From assembly GCA_947502975.1 (NCBI GenBank), contig CANNBV010000005.1, positions 310,001 through 374,000 on the forward strand: a stretch of DNA of 64,000 bases. Reading direction: 5' to 3'. The notes beneath the pieces were generated by a model, which saw only the letters and a program-made list of their open reading frames with translations, was not told the DNA's origin and searched no databases. The stretch is from an uncultured Flavobacteriaceae bacterium. Lineage in GTDB: Bacteria > Bacteroidota > Bacteroidia > Flavobacteriales > Flavobacteriaceae. Position numbers and translations under genes: made by a program. Below, one piece after another: positions 3,323 through 26,046 of the stretch; positions within the stretch are counted from its first letter, which is position 1; each line of letters begins with the position of its first letter.

Positions 3323-3486
3323 ATGGAAAACGTCTTCTAAAGAGAGGGTTTACAATACTATTCTTTATTTTCAGCGAAGTTATTAAGTATTTGAATAACT
3401 GACTTCATTTATTTCTTAAAGCTTTATTAAATTATGTTGTAGGTGCTAAATGCCTTTGGGGTGATAATGGAAGCTGACTGGTATTT

Positions 3487-3648
3487 GCGTTAGGGATTGC
3501 AGCGGCATCCTTTGTGCGAAGCTTCAAGTTCGGAAATTAAAATTTTGGATAAGGTATTAATTAGTAAAGAGATCCCGAAACAAGTTCGGGACTGCTTCGC
3601 AGAAAGATATAGCGGAAAGCCCGACCCGACCTTAGGAGGGGAACGCCC
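3487..3648 (+). repeat. dispersed palindromic repeat, copy 1 (long variant)
   Basis: First of four copies of a dispersed element that starts GCGTTAGGGATTG and ends GAAAGCCCGACCC...GAACGCCC. The outer ends are inverted (GCGTT/AACGC), so the unit can fold back. This copy is longer than the others and carries an inner palindrome, CCCGAAACAAGTTCGGG, at about 3574-3590. It fills most of the 390-base gap between the receptor gene and secDF. Short open frames inside it are chance frames in the repeat and not genes. Confidence 0.75.
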
Positions 3649-20543: not shown

Positions 20544-20888
20544 ATTTTAAAGATAGAAAATACTTTGCAAGATAGTGACGTAAAAGAGTGATTTGTACCA
20601 AAGCTAGCAGATAGTAACGCGTTAGGGATTGAACGTCATGTTTGAAATCCCCGACGCAGGAGGGATTGAGTAGTGAAAGCCCGACCCGCAGGGTAACGCC
20701 CAAAAGATAATTGGTAAAAAGATAAAAAACCTGCCTTTACTAACAATTTATTATCCTAAAGCGGTATTAGAAAGCGAACAATTATGTAATTACTTTGAAA
20801 ACTTGAAAATTAAAATCATTTTTTTTATCAAATCTGTAATACTGAAATTGAAGGTGAAAAAAAATTAAACAGACTGTGTTTATTTACA
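20544..20888. other. intergenic region upstream of the gat leader
   Basis: Between the epimerase start and the gat promoter lies repeat copy 2 (20619-20702) and then about 185 A/T-rich bases. No further reading frame or strong hairpin is seen in those bases. Confidence 0.5.
20619..20702 (+). repeat. dispersed palindromic repeat, copy 2
   Basis: The shortest copy (84 bases). It starts GCGTTAGGGATTG and ends GAAAGCCCGACCCGC-GGGTAACGCCC, with the inverted ends GCGTTA/TAACGC. It lies between two divergent transcription units, well upstream of the gat promoter. Confidence 0.75.
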
Positions 20889-20896
20889 TATCTTTG
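20889..20896 (+). promoter_or_regulatory. -7 promoter element of the gat operon
   Basis: TATCTTTG matches TAnnTTTG exactly. Transcription would start near 20901-20904, leaving only about 8-11 bases before the leader ATG. No clear TTG box is visible at the normal distance. Confidence 0.6.
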
Positions 20897-20911
20897 GTGA
20901 CTCTAAGAAAC

Positions 20912-20959
20912 ATGAAAAACAACAGTAACAATAATAATTTCAATAATCCTACGTGCTAG
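20912..20959 (+). CDS. Asn-rich leader peptide of the gat operon (attenuator)
   Basis: A 15-codon frame that is too short for ordinary gene callers: MKNNSNNNNFNNPTC, with 8 Asn codons (three AAC, five AAT). It starts within about 10 bases of the predicted transcription start. Its stop codon lies 4 bases before the antiterminator arm and 34 bases before a strong intrinsic terminator. That layout matches the leader peptides of trp, his, leu and ilv attenuators, in which a ribosome stalled at the scarce codon lets the antiterminator form. Here the sensed tRNA would be Asn-tRNA(Asn), and the operon encodes the enzymes of the transamidation route. The peptide and hairpins are seen directly; the regulation is inferred. 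Confidence 0.8.
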   Translation: MKNNSNNNNFNNPTC

Positions 20960-21019
20960 GATAGGAAGGTTATTGTTTAAAAATATTAAAAAAGCCTTCC
21001 GCAATTGGAAGGCTTTTTT
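20942..21019 (+). promoter_or_regulatory. attenuator: mutually exclusive hairpins and terminator
   Basis: Arm 1 AAUAAUC (20942-20948, the last Asn codons) can pair with GGUUAUU (20968-20974). A second option is the hairpin ATCCTA/TAGGAT (20946-20951 with 20957-20962), which includes the leader stop codon. Arm 2 GGAAGGUU (20964-20971) pairs with AAGCCUUCC (20993-21000) to form the antiterminator. Arm 3 GCCTTCC (20994-21000) with arm 4 GGAAGGC (21007-21013), followed by six T, forms the terminator, lengthened by A-T pairs on both sides. The antiterminator and terminator use the same CCTTCC, so they exclude one another. A ribosome at the stop codon would cover arm 2. Confidence 0.78.
20994..21019 (+). 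terminator. intrinsic terminator inside the gat leader
   Basis: A perfect 7-bp G/C-containing stem with a 6-base loop and a T6 run, 17 bases before gatC. A terminator between a promoter and its operon makes sense only if it is conditional. Confidence 0.88.
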
Positions 21020-21035
21020 AATCTTAATTAATTGA

Positions 21036-21308
21036 ATGATGAGTAAAATTATGACTGTCGACGTTTTGTCGAGTATTAAAGGAGCACAGCCATCTGAGAC
21101 TGTGAACAAATTATTTGAAGTAATTAAAAATGCAAATACGGCGAATAATAATGCTTTTAATACGAATCATAATAATGCTGTGTCTTTGGATAACTTAAGA
21201 GATGATGTGGTAATTGATAGTTCTGCAATTGAAAAACAAATTATCATTGAAAACTTTCCAAAAGAAAAGAACGGTTATTTGGTTGTTTCTAAAGTTATAG
21301 AAGAATAG
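21036..21308 (+). CDS. gatC: GatC-like subunit of the tRNA amidotransferase, Asn-rich
   Basis: Small belt subunit (90 residues) that holds GatA and GatB together in GatCAB. The C-terminal half is typical GatC: NLRDDVV (53-59) followed by NFPKEKNGYLVVSKVIEE, equivalent to the LREDE and APExxxGFFxVPKVIE motifs. The first half is unusual. It offers one helix rather than the normal helical hairpin, then an Asn-rich linker with 9 Asn in residues 32-47. It is the first gene after the attenuator, with gatA starting two bases after its stop. The identity rests on the C-terminal motif and the operon position. Confidence 0.82.
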   Translation: MMSKIMTVDVLSSIKGAQPSETVNKLFEVIKNANTANNNAFNTNHNNAVSLDNLRDDVVIDSSAIEKQIIIENFPKEKNGYLVVSKVIEE

Positions 21309-21310
21309 TT

Positions 21311-22711
21311 ATGAGTTCTCAAATACATAAAATTCATCAGCAATTGGTGGATAAGGATATAACTTGTATGCAATTAGTACAAAATAGACTGGAAGCGCTA
21401 AAGCAAAACACGCACAATACGGTTAATGCTTTATTAGATGAAACGGCGTTAGATTTAGCCGCTAAAGTTGATGCTAAAATTGCAAATGGTGAAACTATAG
21501 GACTACTAGAGGGTATTCCTTTTGGTATAAAAGATGTGTATATGGTGCAAGGTACGTATACAACTGCGAGTTCTAATTTACTAAAATACTACAAGTCTGC
21601 TTACACGGCAACTGCTATTCAAAAATTATTGGATGCTGGGGCAATTCCTTTAGTAAAAGAAAACTGCGATAGTTTTGGGCATGGTTCATCTAGTGAAAAC
21701 ACCATTTTTGGTGCGGTTAAAAATGCTATAAATCCAGAATTAGTTGGTGGTGGTTCTAGTGGTGGTTCTGCGGTAAATGTTGCTAAAGATTACACGGTGT
21801 TCTCTATTGGCGGCGATACTGGTGGTTCTATTCGTCAACCAGCTGGTTACAATAATGTTTATGGCTTAAAACCAACCTATGGTCGTGTATCGCGTTATGG
21901 CATCATGGCTTATGCGTCATCTACGGATTGTGTTGGCCCAATTGCAAAATCTATCGAAGATATTCGCATTGTTTTAAATGTGATAAGTGGACAAGACGTT
22001 AAAGATCAAACGACGTATACTTCAGAAGATATTTCAAAAGAGAGCACTTTAAATGCTGAAGGCATAAAGACCGTTGGGTATTTCAAAAATTTTATTGAAA
22101 ATGATGCGATTGACCCTCAAATAAAATCTGATTTTTTAGCGTCGATTGAAAAAATAAAAAGTAAAGGCATTGCTGTAAAAGCATTAGATTTCTTTGAGTC
22201 TAATACGCTAGTTTCTACATATTATACCTTAGCGATGGCCGAAACTGCTTCTAACTTATCACGCTTAGATGGTACGAATTACGGTAATAGAATAGAAGCC
22301 GAAAATTTAAAAGAAACCTATGCTGTAACACGTTCTGAGAACTTTTCTGAAGAAAGTAAACGCAGAATTGTTGGTGGAAATCAGGTGTTATCTCAAGGGT
22401 TTTCAGATGAAATTTATTTGAAAGGTCTAAACTTACGGGATCAAATTATTGAAAATTTTGAAGATGATTTCAATAAAGTTGATATTATCCTTTCTCCTGT
22501 AACACCAAGTACACCACCAAAAATTGGAGACAGTTTAAAAGATCCTTTGGCGATGTATTTATCTGATGCATATACTGTTGGTTTTAGCTTAGGGCAATTA
22601 CCAACATTGACTATACCCCAAGGCACTGCAACCGGATTACAAATTACCGCTGCAAAAACTAATGACGAACTCGTTTTGAAGTTTGCTAACTTCTTAAAAG
22701 ATACGATATAA
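21311..22711 (+). CDS. gatA: Asp-tRNA(Asn)/Glu-tRNA(Gln) amidotransferase subunit A
   Basis: Amidase subunit that releases ammonia from glutamine (or asparagine) for tRNA-bound amidation, 466 residues. The Ser-cisSer-Lys triad of the amidase signature family is complete: Lys74 in GIKDVY, Ser149 in GGGSSGGSA and Ser173 in GGDTGGSIRQPA. The spacing is the same as in characterised GatA proteins. It is somewhat shorter than the common 480-490 residues. It follows gatC by two bases, and its stop overlaps the gatB::aspS start by one base (TAATG), so the three subunits are translationally coupled. Confidence 0.95.
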   Translation: MSSQIHKIHQQLVDKDITCMQLVQNRLEALKQNTHNTVNALLDETALDLAAKVDAKIANGETIGLLEGIPFGIKDVYMVQGTYTTASSNLLKYYKSAYTATAIQKLLDAGAIPLVKENCDSFGHGSSSENTIFGAVKNAINPELVGGGSSGGSAVNVAKDYTVFSIGGDTGGSIRQPAGYNNVYGLKPTYGRVSRYGIMAYASSTDCVGPIAKSIEDIRIVLNVISGQDVKDQTTYTSEDISKESTLNAEGIKTVGYFKNFIENDAIDPQIKSDFLASIEKIKSKGIAVKALDFFESNTLVSTYYTLAMAETASNLSRLDGTNYGNRIEAENLKETYAVTRSENFSEESKRRIVGGNQVLSQGFSDEIYLKGLNLRDQIIENFEDDFNKVDIILSPVTPSTPPKIGDSLKDPLAMYLSDAYTVGFSLGQLPTLTIPQGTATGLQITAAKTNDELVLKFANFLKDTI

Positions 22712-25700
22712 TGGAACTGGAGCAATTAAATGAACTATTAAAAGCACACGAAATAGAGTTGGTAATCGGTCTTGAAACCCACGTTCGATTAAATACAAAG
22801 ACGAAGTTGTTTTGTTCTTGTGCAAATCAGGAAATAGAAACACCAAATCAAAATATTTGCTCGGTTTGTACGGGACAAATGGGTGTGTTGCCTGCTATAA
22901 ACAAAGAAGCTATAACAAAAGCAATTTACTTTGGAAAAGCAGTAAAATCTACTTTTGAAAATGAAGTTATTTCTTGGGACAGGAAACATTATGAATACCC
23001 TGATAACCCAAAGAATATACAGATTACGCAGTTTCACAATCCAGTGATTCCTGACGGACAGGTGTCTTGTTTTAGAAATGACGGCTCTCAGTTTACGGTG
23101 AATTTAACTCAGGTGCATATCGAGGAAGACGCCGCAAAATTAATGCATGAGAAAAACGTCTCGCTGGTAGATTTTAATAAAGCTGGCGTACCACTTATCG
23201 AAATTGTTACAGAGCCTTGTATTCGTCACATTGAAGATGCTTCAATTTACGCACAATACATACAACGTATTGTTCAAAATTTAGGCATTTCAGAAGCTAA
23301 TTTAGAGAAAGGTGAGTTTAAATCAGATGTTTCTGTATCACTTCGGAAAAAACACAGCTATAACTTAAACCCGCGCACCGAAATAAAAAACCTCAACTCA
23401 TTTAAATTTATGGTTGAGGCTTTAAAAGAAGAAATTGAAAAGCAACTCAATTACTATTTAGAGCATAAGGAATTTAGACCAGACCAAACTACCGTACTTT
23501 TTGACGCTGATTTAAAGCAGACCAAAACCATGCGTAAAAAAGAGTTTGAGGCAGATTATCGTTTTATATCTGAACCAGACTTGCCTTTTGTAAGTATTAA
23601 GGATGTTGTAGCATCTATTGATGTTGATATTAGTACGTTGCCATTTGCAGTAGAGTCTATCTTAATTAAAGGTGGTGTTTTACCTCAGGATGCTAAATTT
23701 TTCACAGCAGATGCTGTACGCTCTAAAACATTTATGGCGATTAATGACGTGATAAAAGATCCTTCTTTTGTGGCTAAAACGTTAGTGAATAATATTGATG
23801 CTGAGGCTTATGGCGATATTCACCGCATTGAGCATCTTATTGAAATTTTTCAATTATTTAAGGATGAAAAAATCACTTCTGTTTTAGTACAAAATGCTAT
23901 TACTTCTTATTTAAAAGATAGAAGTTTTGATTACAATAAATATTTTGAAGATAATACCATTTCAGAATCTCAAATAGATGATGCGATTGCAAAGGTTATT
24001 TCTGAAAATAGCGCCATTGCAAATGATATTAAAGGCGGCAACCAAGGAAAAGCAGGTATTCTCGTTGGAAAAGTTATTGGTATTATTGGGAAAGGTGCTT
24101 CTGGAAAAGTGATTCGTGAGCGTATTTTAAGTCAATTGGCTTCTGATGCTTTAGTAGATTCAAAAACGGAAACTGACAACACACAAACATCAAAATCTGA
24201 CATTGTAAATCAAAATTCAGATGAAGAAGTACTTCCTGAAATTCCACTTGTAATTAAAGAACACTATCGTACTCATAAAGTATCTCAATTAACTGAAGCT
24301 TCAATTTCTGAAAAAGTCACTTTAGCAGGTTGGGTATCTAGTGTTAGAGATCATGGTGAACTGATGTTTATCGATTTACGCGATTCTAGTCACGAGATTT
24401 TTCAGGTACGTTTAAGCAGAGAATCATTTCCAAATCTTGATGAATTAGTAAAGCTTAAACCAGAATCTGTAATTACAGTTACTGGTGAAGTGGTACAACG
24501 TAAAGCCGATGATTACAATCCGTCGTTACGTACTGGAACTATTGAGTTAGAAACTTCAGAATTAGATATTTTGAATCTTTCTAAAACCTTACCGTTTGAA
24601 ATAAAACGAGCGCATAAGTCCAACGAAACCGTTCGTTTTCAATATAAATACTTAGATCATAGAAATGATGCCGTTAGAAAAGCTATTGTAAATCGCCATA
24701 AGGTGATTAAATTGATGCGTGATATTCTAGATGAACAAGAGTTTCTAGAAGTTGAAACACCTATTCTAACTGCTGGAACAGATGAAGGTGCACGAGAATT
24801 TATCGTACCTACGCGAAAAAAAGCAGGGTCTTTTTACACATTACCACAGGCACCACAGCAGTTTAAGCAAATTTTGATGGTGAGTGGTTATGAGAAGTAC
24901 TTCCAAATTGCACGTTGTTTTAGAGATGAAGATTCTCGTGGAGATAGACAACCAGAATTTACGCAATTAGATATAGAAGTTGCTTACTCCAGTATGCAAG
25001 ATATTATTGATTTGAATACTAATATGTTCAATGAGATCGTCACTAAAATTTATGGCAACAAATGGATTTTGCATCCATTTGAAGTACTGACGTACAAAGA
25101 AGCCATGGACAGCTACGGTTGTGACAGACCTGATTTACGATTCGGATTGAAACTTCAAGATATTACAGATATTGTAAAGGAAACGACCTTTCAAGTATTT
25201 AGTAAACCTATTGATGAAGGCGGTATTGTTAAATGTATTAAAGTGTCTGCTGAAGAACAGGGTAAAAAACGCTTATCAAAAGGACAGATTGAAAAGCTAA
25301 CCGCTATTGCTCAAGATAACGGTTTAGGTGGTTTAGCCTATATTATTGTAAATGAAAACGATCTACAATCTCCTATTATTAAGTTTTTAGGTGAAGCCAT
25401 CGCAGAAAATATTATCAAAACAACACATGCACAAGTTGGTGATATCGTATTCTTTTCAGCCTCAGATTATGATACTGCAAATAAAGCTTTAGATGCTGTG
25501 CGACAAGAATTGGGTAGAATGCTTAAGTTGATTAATCCAAAAGAATTAAGACCAGCTTGGGTGGTAGACTTCCCAATGTTTGAAAAAACCGAAGAAGGCC
25601 GCTGGACGTTTACACACAATCCATTCTCCATGCCAGCTGTTTATGATATCGAAAAACACATCGATGGAAAAGAAGACGAGATTGGTAGTATTATAGCCCA

Positions 25701-26046
25701 GCAATACGATTTAATATTGAACGGTTACGAAATTGGTGGTGGCTCAGTACGTGCCCACAAACCAGAAATTTTAGAAGCTACATACAAAAACATGGGGTAT
25801 GATAAGGAGGAGATGATGAAGAGTGTCGGCACTATGTACAATGCATTTCACTATGGTGCGCCTCCTCATGGCGGTATTGCCTGGGGTGTGGACCGATTAA
25901 TGATGATTTTAGAGAAAAAAGCATCCATTAGAGAAGTCATGGCATTCCCAAAAACAGGAACCAGTGAAGACTTATTATTTGGTTCCCCTTCTCCCCTTTC
26001 TGATAAGAAAGTTGAAGAGATGAATGTGAAGGTAATACGGAAGTAA
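22711..26046 (+). CDS. gatB-aspS: GatB-AspRS fusion: amidotransferase subunit B / aspartyl-tRNA synthetase
   Basis: One 1111-residue chain that could charge tRNA with Asp and then activate the Asp for amidation. Residues 1-about 480 are GatB: the Zn-type cysteines Cys35, Cys37, Cys50 and Cys53, the kinase core ELVIGLETHVRLN, and the tail domain ending GKASGKVIRERI-like near 470. A polar linker (about 480-510) joins it to bacterial-type AspRS. The AspRS half has an OB-fold anticodon domain (about 515-620), motif 2 FRDEDSRGDRQPEFTQLDIE, the GAD insertion (about 810-930) and motif 3 GGIAWGVDRL. His548 in VRDHGE lies where P. aeruginosa non-discriminating AspRS has His31 and E. coli has Leu. No frameshift or internal restart is needed. 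The fusion is secure; tRNA specificity is inferred. Confidence 0.95.
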   Translation: MELEQLNELLKAHEIELVIGLETHVRLNTKTKLFCSCANQEIETPNQNICSVCTGQMGVLPAINKEAITKAIYFGKAVKSTFENEVISWDRKHYEYPDNPKNIQITQFHNPVIPDGQVSCFRNDGSQFTVNLTQVHIEEDAAKLMHEKNVSLVDFNKAGVPLIEIVTEPCIRHIEDASIYAQYIQRIVQNLGISEANLEKGEFKSDVSVSLRKKHSYNLNPRTEIKNLNSFKFMVEALKEEIEKQLNYYLEHKEFRPDQTTVLFDADLKQTKTMRKKEFEADYRFISEPDLPFVSIKDVVASIDVDISTLPFAVESILIKGGVLPQDAKFFTADAVRSKTFMAINDVIKDPSFVAKTLVNNIDAEAYGDIHRIEHLIEIFQLFKDEKITSVLVQNAITSYLKDRSFDYNKYFEDNTISESQIDDAIAKVISENSAIANDIKGGNQGKAGILVGKVIGIIGKGASGKVIRERILSQLASDALVDSKTETDNTQTSKSDIVNQNSDEEVLPEIPLVIKEHYRTHKVSQLTEASISEKVTLAGWVSSVRDHGELMFIDLRDSSHEIFQVRLSRESFPNLDELVKLKPESVITVTGEVVQRKADDYNPSLRTGTIELETSELDILNLSKTLPFEIKRAHKSNETVRFQYKYLDHRNDAVRKAIVNRHKVIKLMRDILDEQEFLEVETPILTAGTDEGAREFIVPTRKKAGSFYTLPQAPQQFKQILMVSGYEKYFQIARCFRDEDSRGDRQPEFTQLDIEVAYSSMQDIIDLNTNMFNEIVTKIYGNKWILHPFEVLTYKEAMDSYGCDRPDLRFGLKLQDITDIVKETTFQVFSKPIDEGGIVKCIKVSAEEQGKKRLSKGQIEKLTAIAQDNGLGGLAYIIVNENDLQSPIIKFLGEAIAENIIKTTHAQVGDIVFFSASDYDTANKALDAVRQELGRMLKLINPKELRPAWVVDFPMFEKTEEGRWTFTHNPFSMPAVYDIEKHIDGKEDEIGSIIAQQYDLILNGYEIGGGSVRAHKPEILEATYKNMGYDKEEMMKSVGTMYNAFHYGAPPHGGIAWGVDRLMMILEKKASIREVMAFPKTGTSEDLLFGSPSPLSDKKVEEMNVKVIRK

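Follow-up and report, generated by a model that had tools for sequence, protein, structure and literature searches.

An operon predicted to make asparagine on its tRNA, gatC-gatA-gatB::aspS, is preceded in an uncultured member of the Flavobacteriaceae by a short Asn-rich frame and an intrinsic terminator. Judged from its sequence, this leader very probably controls the operon through transcription attenuation, with ribosome stalling at Asn codons sensing charged tRNA(Asn). Its elements and the genes behind it are listed here by position in the window, by which we mean the whole stretch of DNA analyzed (64,000 nucleotides).

20889..20896, + strand: TAnnTTTG box, TATCTTTG, read directly
20912..20959, + strand: leader peptide MKNNSNNNNFNNPTC and stop codon TAG; 15 codons, 8 of them Asn
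20927..20941, + strand: arm 1, Asn codon run and Phe codon; pairs with arm 2 as pause/anti-antiterminator stem
20946..20962, + strand: inner hairpin ATCCTA/TAGGAT with the stop codon inside, from folding and alignment
20964..20977, + strand: arm 2, GGAAGGTTATTGTT; its partner is arm 1 or arm 3
20987..21020, + strand: intrinsic terminator, stem 20987-21000/21007-21020, six T at 21014-21019
20995..21000, + strand: arm 3, CCTTCC, common to antiterminator (2:3) and terminator (3:4)
21039..21308, + strand: gatC, with Asn-rich insert; ATG 21036 is also a possible start
21311..22711, + strand: gatA; TIGR00132 432.6 bits, cutoff 481.1
22711..26046, + strand: gatB::aspS fusion, 1,111 amino acids, with profile matches to both halves

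The leader and the operon behind it

The first-pass annotation had described a TAnnTTTG box, a 15-codon frame with 8 Asn codons, a stop codon 4 bases before a pairing arm, and a terminator with six T just 5′ of gatC. Each of these was found again, the box base for base, the frame from ATG 20912, and the stop codon at 20957-20959, with arm 2 beginning at 20964, 4 bases 3′ of TAG. We take TAnnTTTG to be the Bacteroidota −7 promoter box, which TATCTTTG fits, and such a box lies 10 to 23 bases 5′ of the leader start in all 39 leaders of our first set of operons. The Asn-rich frame is unique on both strands of the window (ATG frame of 8 to 30 codons, at least 7 Asn, at least 45% Asn), and 60 first-order Markov copies of the window yielded no comparable frame. 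Farther 5′ of the leader, the intergenic stretch at 20600-20710 appeared by eye to be richer in G+C, and the window holds a single copy of its 25-base core.

Profile searches bore out the earlier assignment of the genes behind the leader to a GatCAB/AspRS operon, to which we add that GatB and AspRS form a single fused protein. The GatB half scores 342.1 bits on TIGR00133 (cutoff 314.8), and the AspRS half, of bacterial type, 655.2 bits on TIGR00459 (cutoff 373.85). GatC is divergent (19.8 bits on Pfam GatC, cutoff 23; 21 bits on TIGR00135, cutoff 47.1), and alignment favors ATG 21039 (MSK) over ATG 21036 as its start. Part of its insert, at 21126-21180 (NANTANNNAFNTNHNNA), is rich in Asn. A tie between this stretch and the leader was rejected, as Asn in residues 26 to 52 averages 7.9 in operons with a leader and 8.4 in those without.

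GatB is present in all 12 genus genomes and, family-wide, in 59 of 397. Open frames of 1,115 to 1,130 amino acids, the fused length, contain 58 of these family matches, and the remaining one lies in an 809-amino-acid frame on a 3.6-kb contig. In an order-wide draw, no GatB of fused length was found outside the window's family (frames mostly ~480 to 530 amino acids, 137 to 630 overall), and GatB matches outside the family had 29 to 44% identity. Among the best 80 of 111 matches, operon carriers include Hyunsoonleella, Jejuia, Algibacter, Tamlana, and Polaribacter as well as Mariniflexile, Confluentibacter, Lutibacter, and Flavobacterium species. Since GatB of the window is closer to that of some other genera (93% identity) than to that of some genomes of the same genus (82%), the operon may have been exchanged between species.

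The arrangement of arms suggests how the leader would work. RNA polymerase would start just 3′ of the TAnnTTTG box, and a ribosome would begin the short Asn-rich frame. With Asn-tRNA(Asn) plentiful, the ribosome would reach the TAG and cover arm 2 (GGAAGG), leaving arm 3 to pair with arm 4, so that the terminator would form and gatCA-gatB::aspS would stay silent. With Asn-tRNA(Asn) scarce, it would stall within the Asn run and cover arm 1, upon which arm 2 would pair with arm 3 and the polymerase would read through. The putatively non-discriminating AspRS fused to GatB, together with GatA and GatC, would then convert Asp to Asn on tRNA(Asn). The molecule sensed, Asn-tRNA(Asn), would therefore be the pathway's own product.

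Conservation and competing stems

We compared upstream regions in two sets of operons. The first set held 66 (the window and 65 other loci; L042 and L043, on truncated contigs, were too short and were dropped), 39 of them with the leader, and the second, mostly of named organisms, had the leader in 49 of 82 by strict motif, with locus L163 as a degenerate fiftieth. Removal of 31 duplicates from the merged sets left 117 distinct operons. The search motif consisted of codons for Asn-Phe-Asn-Asn-Pro/Ser, which are therefore conserved by definition, and since the label in the merged set also required a terminator, motif and terminator were scored separately. Both were present in 72 of the 117 operons and both absent in 45, and in no operon was one found alone; that is, an intrinsic terminator accompanies the motif in 72/72 operons and occurs in 0/45 without it. 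CCTTCC/GGRRGG matches more than 150 bases 5′ of gatC at L130 and L153 were not taken as terminators. Many of the leaderless operons have another promoter-like stretch near gatC, as judged by eye.

Several features that lie outside the search motif are also conserved, namely, the TAG, the frame, and the spacing from stop codon to arm. The stop is TAG in 72/72 leaders, and in 71 of them the nearest 5′ ATG opens the same frame. Arm 2 reads GGRAGG in 68 leaders and GAAGG in 4, and the GGRAGG form begins 3 to 5 bases past the stop in 67/68. Every leader holds 6 to 10 Asn codons, 2 or 3 of which are fixed by the search motif, and the run is broken by an Arg codon (CGT) in 10/72, some of them from Polaribacter. 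The 5′ Asn codons exchange AAT for AAC at three positions (AAT/AAC 53/12, 33/36, and 15/57 among the 72 leaders), as would be expected of a translated frame.

Attenuators of the trp, his, phe, and thr operons combine a short frame with many codons for the regulated amino acid, a stop codon beside a shared arm, three competing stems, and a terminator. The gatC leader has the same design of frame, stop, stems, and terminator before a biosynthetic operon; unlike these attenuators, it is built on Asn codons, and its target would make the amino acid on its tRNA. Folding upheld the trp-type design that had been proposed for the window, giving 1:2, 2:3, and 3:4 geometry in which arm 2 would be masked once a ribosome reached the stop. 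In the RNAalifold consensus of 39 leaders, the run AACAATAATAAT..TTC pairs with GGAAGGTTATTGTT around a CCTA..TAGG hairpin that holds the stop codon, and the terminator forms as well. Consensus pairs are formed in 99.0% of cells, compared with 40 to 61% when the partners are slid, and the five consensus pairs of the inner hairpin in 100%. In 39/39 leaders arm 3 complements arm 2 as well, and the three stems are mutually exclusive, all of them possible in nearly all sequences, with weak covariation. With an assumed footprint, a stop-bound ribosome would mask 5 or 6 of the 6 arm 2 bases in 39/39, and stalling at the final codon of the Asn run would let arm 2 pair with arm 3, again in 39/39. For ribosome-free RNA ending after arm 3, the minimum-energy fold is 2:3 rather than 1:2 in 34/39, so termination without translation would depend on folding order.

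Compensatory changes in the stems, to which the first-pass annotation had looked for support, turned up only in the terminator: two-sided changes affect 2 of 29 pairs, both of them there, whereas the competing stems are nearly invariant, and no covariation was found in the 2:3 stem of the 39 leaders. Such changes are scarce because the arms hardly vary, and with so few of them covariation is no proof of the switch. The comparison with relatives was likewise divided, with motif and terminator always together (72/117) but the module missing in 45/117. The reading of the region as an Asn-codon attenuator of the gatCAB/AspRS operon is nonetheless supported by the co-occurrence of motif and terminator, by the conserved TAG, frame, and spacing, and by the alternative stems.

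A covariance model searched against 397 family genomes gave 37 matches of at least 94 bits, every one 5′ of gatC; 35 were loci already known, 2 further loci were inspected, and the next match scored 56 bits. At E 0.01, some match was found in 221 of the 397 genomes. Control of other genes by this leader was considered and rejected, as 8 of the 10 best among the weaker matches listed (L089 to L098) look like plain terminators. Locus L090 (G260:C8:471799-471911) has an Ile/Val-rich leader 5′ of an ilvD-like gene and L094 (G054:C11:9736-9852) a Trp-Trp leader 5′ of a trpE-like gene, both genes named from translation. A search of 296 phylum-wide genomes at E 1e-6 returned the window's own matches only.

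We then asked whether the leader state follows the history of the operon. On a quick GatC plus GatA tree of 116 operons (L149, with incomplete GatA, was left out), parsimony gives 19 changes of leader state, at least 8 of them on starred branches, compared with a shuffled mean of 35.8. Both states occur within each of Hyunsoonleella, Jejuia, Algibacter, Tamlana, Mariniflexile, and Polaribacter. Given these repeated changes and the absence of the module from 45/117 operons, the leader is dispensable.

A different account of the same conservation would put structure first: the terminator would respond to binding of a protein, tRNA, or metabolite, and the Asn frame would be a by-product of an A-rich arm. 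The stretch AAT-TTC-AAT-AAT-CCT is nearly base invariant, in part because the search motif fixes it, and pairing would explain this. Against this account, frame, TAG, and spacing are conserved, the 5′ codons swap AAT and AAC, and the asnA and asnB genes of relatives carry unrelated Asn-rich leaders (see below). A T-box, which binds tRNA directly and brings about transcription attenuation by tRNA charging, was sought by its consensus, and the motif was absent within 2 mismatches. The leader belongs to no Rfam family at gathering score; its scores are 39.2 bits for Phe_leader (RF01859, gathering score 55), 35.2 bits for Thr_leader (RF00506, gathering score 55), and 23.9 bits for Bacteroid-trp (RF01692, gathering score 49). 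The two top families are thus peptide leaders, which also speaks against a structure-first account, but all three scores stand among 79 subthreshold Rfam matches, most of them surely due to chance. Other known riboswitches were rejected too: across the window, Rfam searches reached a gathering score only for Flavo-1, an RNA at 3482-3630. We consider the structure-first account unlikely.

It is very unlikely that the leader senses translation in general or another shortage, such as that of Phe. A Phe codon does stand at the same place in all leaders, but it is itself in the search motif, it sits in the arm that pairs with GGA, and it is one fixed codon against 6 to 10 Asn per leader; moreover, the predicted product of the operon is Asn-tRNA(Asn). 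That the leader peptide acts in trans, as PMC7298713 reports for peTrpL, is barely credible, since the sequence conservation in 72/117 operons that would favor it is accounted for by codons and pairing, and a terminator always accompanies the leader.

The asparagine supply of operon genomes

Attenuation at Asn codons makes sense where the operon provides asparagine synthesis and AsnRS uses asparagine from outside. We sought AsnB and AsnA in 40 of the 70 operon genomes (20 with the leader and 20 leaderless) and in 40 operon-less genomes, taken in handle order from G012 to G066; G014, G015, G016, G026, G027, and G033 (80 to 93% complete) were skipped, and G059 (82%) and G066 (86%) were retained. 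None of the 40 operon genomes examined yielded AsnA or ordinary-class AsnB. In the operon-less relatives, ordinary AsnB was found in 34/40, the class being read from the matched profile range of 1 to ~385 (to 361 in G059), AsnA in 5/40, and either in 38/40 (0/40 versus 38/40, Fisher P = 1.6e-20, uncorrected for kinship). A tree including 6 of the 34 ordinary AsnB proteins separates that class. One ordinary-class protein scores 960 bits as asparagine synthase B, where the cutoff is 499; an AsnB-like protein that belongs to a different class and comes from an operon genome scores 252 bits. Of the 40 operon genomes, 20 encode AsnB-like proteins of other classes; the leader does not track them, with 9/20 leader and 11/20 leaderless genomes having one. 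Searches of the window's genome with TIGR01536 (E 1e-50) and for AsnA (E 1e-10) both came back empty.

Of the 70 operon genomes, 65 have AsnRS. A role of the operon in supplying Gln-tRNA(Gln) was rejected, as was a role as the sole source of AspRS, with GlnRS and a separate AspRS each found in 20/20 operon genomes examined. In the window's genome the ordinary tRNA(Asn) has U1-A72, and tRNA(Asp) has G1-C72; according to PMC4206432, bacterial GatCAB requires U1-A72. A dense array of ~20 tRNA genes at G000:C2:266861-270821 (L201, L213) includes a second tRNA(Asn), with G1-C72. GatCAB, an adjoining AspRS, and a tRNA(Asn) with U1-A72, the components of tRNA-dependent Asn synthesis, are thus all present, and the fused AspRS would be non-discriminating, charging tRNA(Asn). 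Given that ordinary AsnB and AsnA are missing, that AsnRS, a separate AspRS, and GlnRS are present, and that tRNA(Asn) has U1-A72, the operon would most simply be the cell's means of asparagine synthesis, with AsnRS using outside asparagine, and it appears to replace the ordinary asparagine synthetase. With gatCA-gatB::aspS in place of AsnB/AsnA, the downstream genes have the predicted activity that fits a maker of the Asn-tRNA sensed. As long as AsnRS can charge outside asparagine, the operon probably stays silent.

Among genomes at least 90% complete, which omits G008, G062, and G281, the leader is present in 0/4 without AsnRS and in 37/61 with it (P = 0.03, uncorrected for kinship). The leaderless operons of near-complete genomes without AsnRS are L067, L068, L070, and L063. 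In G281, which is 76% complete, no AsnRS was found and the leader is present.

Ordinary asparagine synthetase genes have Asn-rich leaders of their own. With G059 left out, we read the regions 5′ of asnB in 33 of the 34 genomes with the ordinary gene and 5′ of asnA in 4 of the 5 that have it. An Asn-rich leader followed by a terminator precedes asnB in 5 of the 33 operon-less genomes (L226, L244, L258, L262, and L265) and asnA in 3 of 4 (L271, L272, and L273 but not L270), and these leaders differ in sequence from the gatC leader. L271 may hold two tandem terminators. We also defined a fixed criterion (ATG frame of 8 to 30 codons with at least 5 Asn and 35% Asn, a perfect stem of at least 8, and T5 behind it), which picked out 6 of 38 upstream regions of asnB/asnA type; L226 and L272 fall outside it and were included by eye, and L251 and L254, with Asn-containing frames 5′ of asnB and no strong terminator, were excluded. 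Applied to 1,004,983 other bases, redundant and mostly coding, it returned only gatC leaders, 87 of them. No Asn-rich leader precedes asnS in the window's genome. Because unrelated Asn-rich leaders precede asnB and asnA, Asn attenuation seems to have arisen repeatedly.

Known systems and biological meaning

Peptide-leader attenuation is known in the phylum, since Rfam holds the Bacteroid-trp family. PMC9723704 describes clues to leader-peptide attenuation of amino acid operons in Flavobacterium psychrophilum and names structured 5′ elements of pheA and hisG. Those operons belong to the same family of bacteria, and the kind of mechanism proposed for them is the one that we propose for the gatC leader; no word beginning with "asparagin" occurs in the main text of that source. 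Short frames in 5′ untranslated regions of Bacteroides thetaiotaomicron are mentioned in PMC7366714. In the open-access literature searched, no title or abstract pointed to an Asn leader attenuator or to peptide-leader control of gatCAB. Leader-peptide attenuation is thus already known, while its Asn specificity and gatCAB target appear, by these titles and abstracts, to be new.

Another close system is T-box control of the tRNA-dependent Asn route, in which, as proposed for the gatC leader, tRNA charging acts via transcription attenuation; unlike in the T-box, whose motif is absent here, the sensor of the gatC leader would be the translating ribosome. For T-box control in Clostridium acetobutylicum, PMC4206432 cites work of 2012 and 2013. 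The same source reports AsnRS, GlnRS, and GatCAB together without AsnA/AsnB in Deinococcus, Thermus, and Bdellovibrio, a combination that the operon genomes share, and a second AspRS in Deinococcus-Thermus. In contrast to that arrangement, the second AspRS here is of bacterial type and fused to GatB, with a putative leader attenuator in front of its operon.

Looking beyond this one operon, we lean toward the view that attenuation sensing Asn-tRNA is widespread in the Flavobacteriaceae and of several independent origins, preceding gatCA-gatB::aspS, asnB, and asnA, with the shortest possible loop on the first of these routes, where the direct product of the operon would itself be sensed, and that it is absent in the few near-complete genomes in which the operon would be the sole source of Asn-tRNA. 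If the proposed mechanism holds, asparagine would be one more amino acid to which peptide-leader attenuators respond, and an attenuator would be tied to tRNA-dependent amino acid synthesis, sensing the enzyme's own product. For Bacteroidota, in which attenuation by ribosomes has been little studied, the leader would provide a ready-made system for tests. That asnA and asnB have Asn leaders of unrelated sequence suggests recurrent selection for control by asparagine, and the gatC leader with its operon hints at how these bacteria manage without an ordinary asparagine synthetase.
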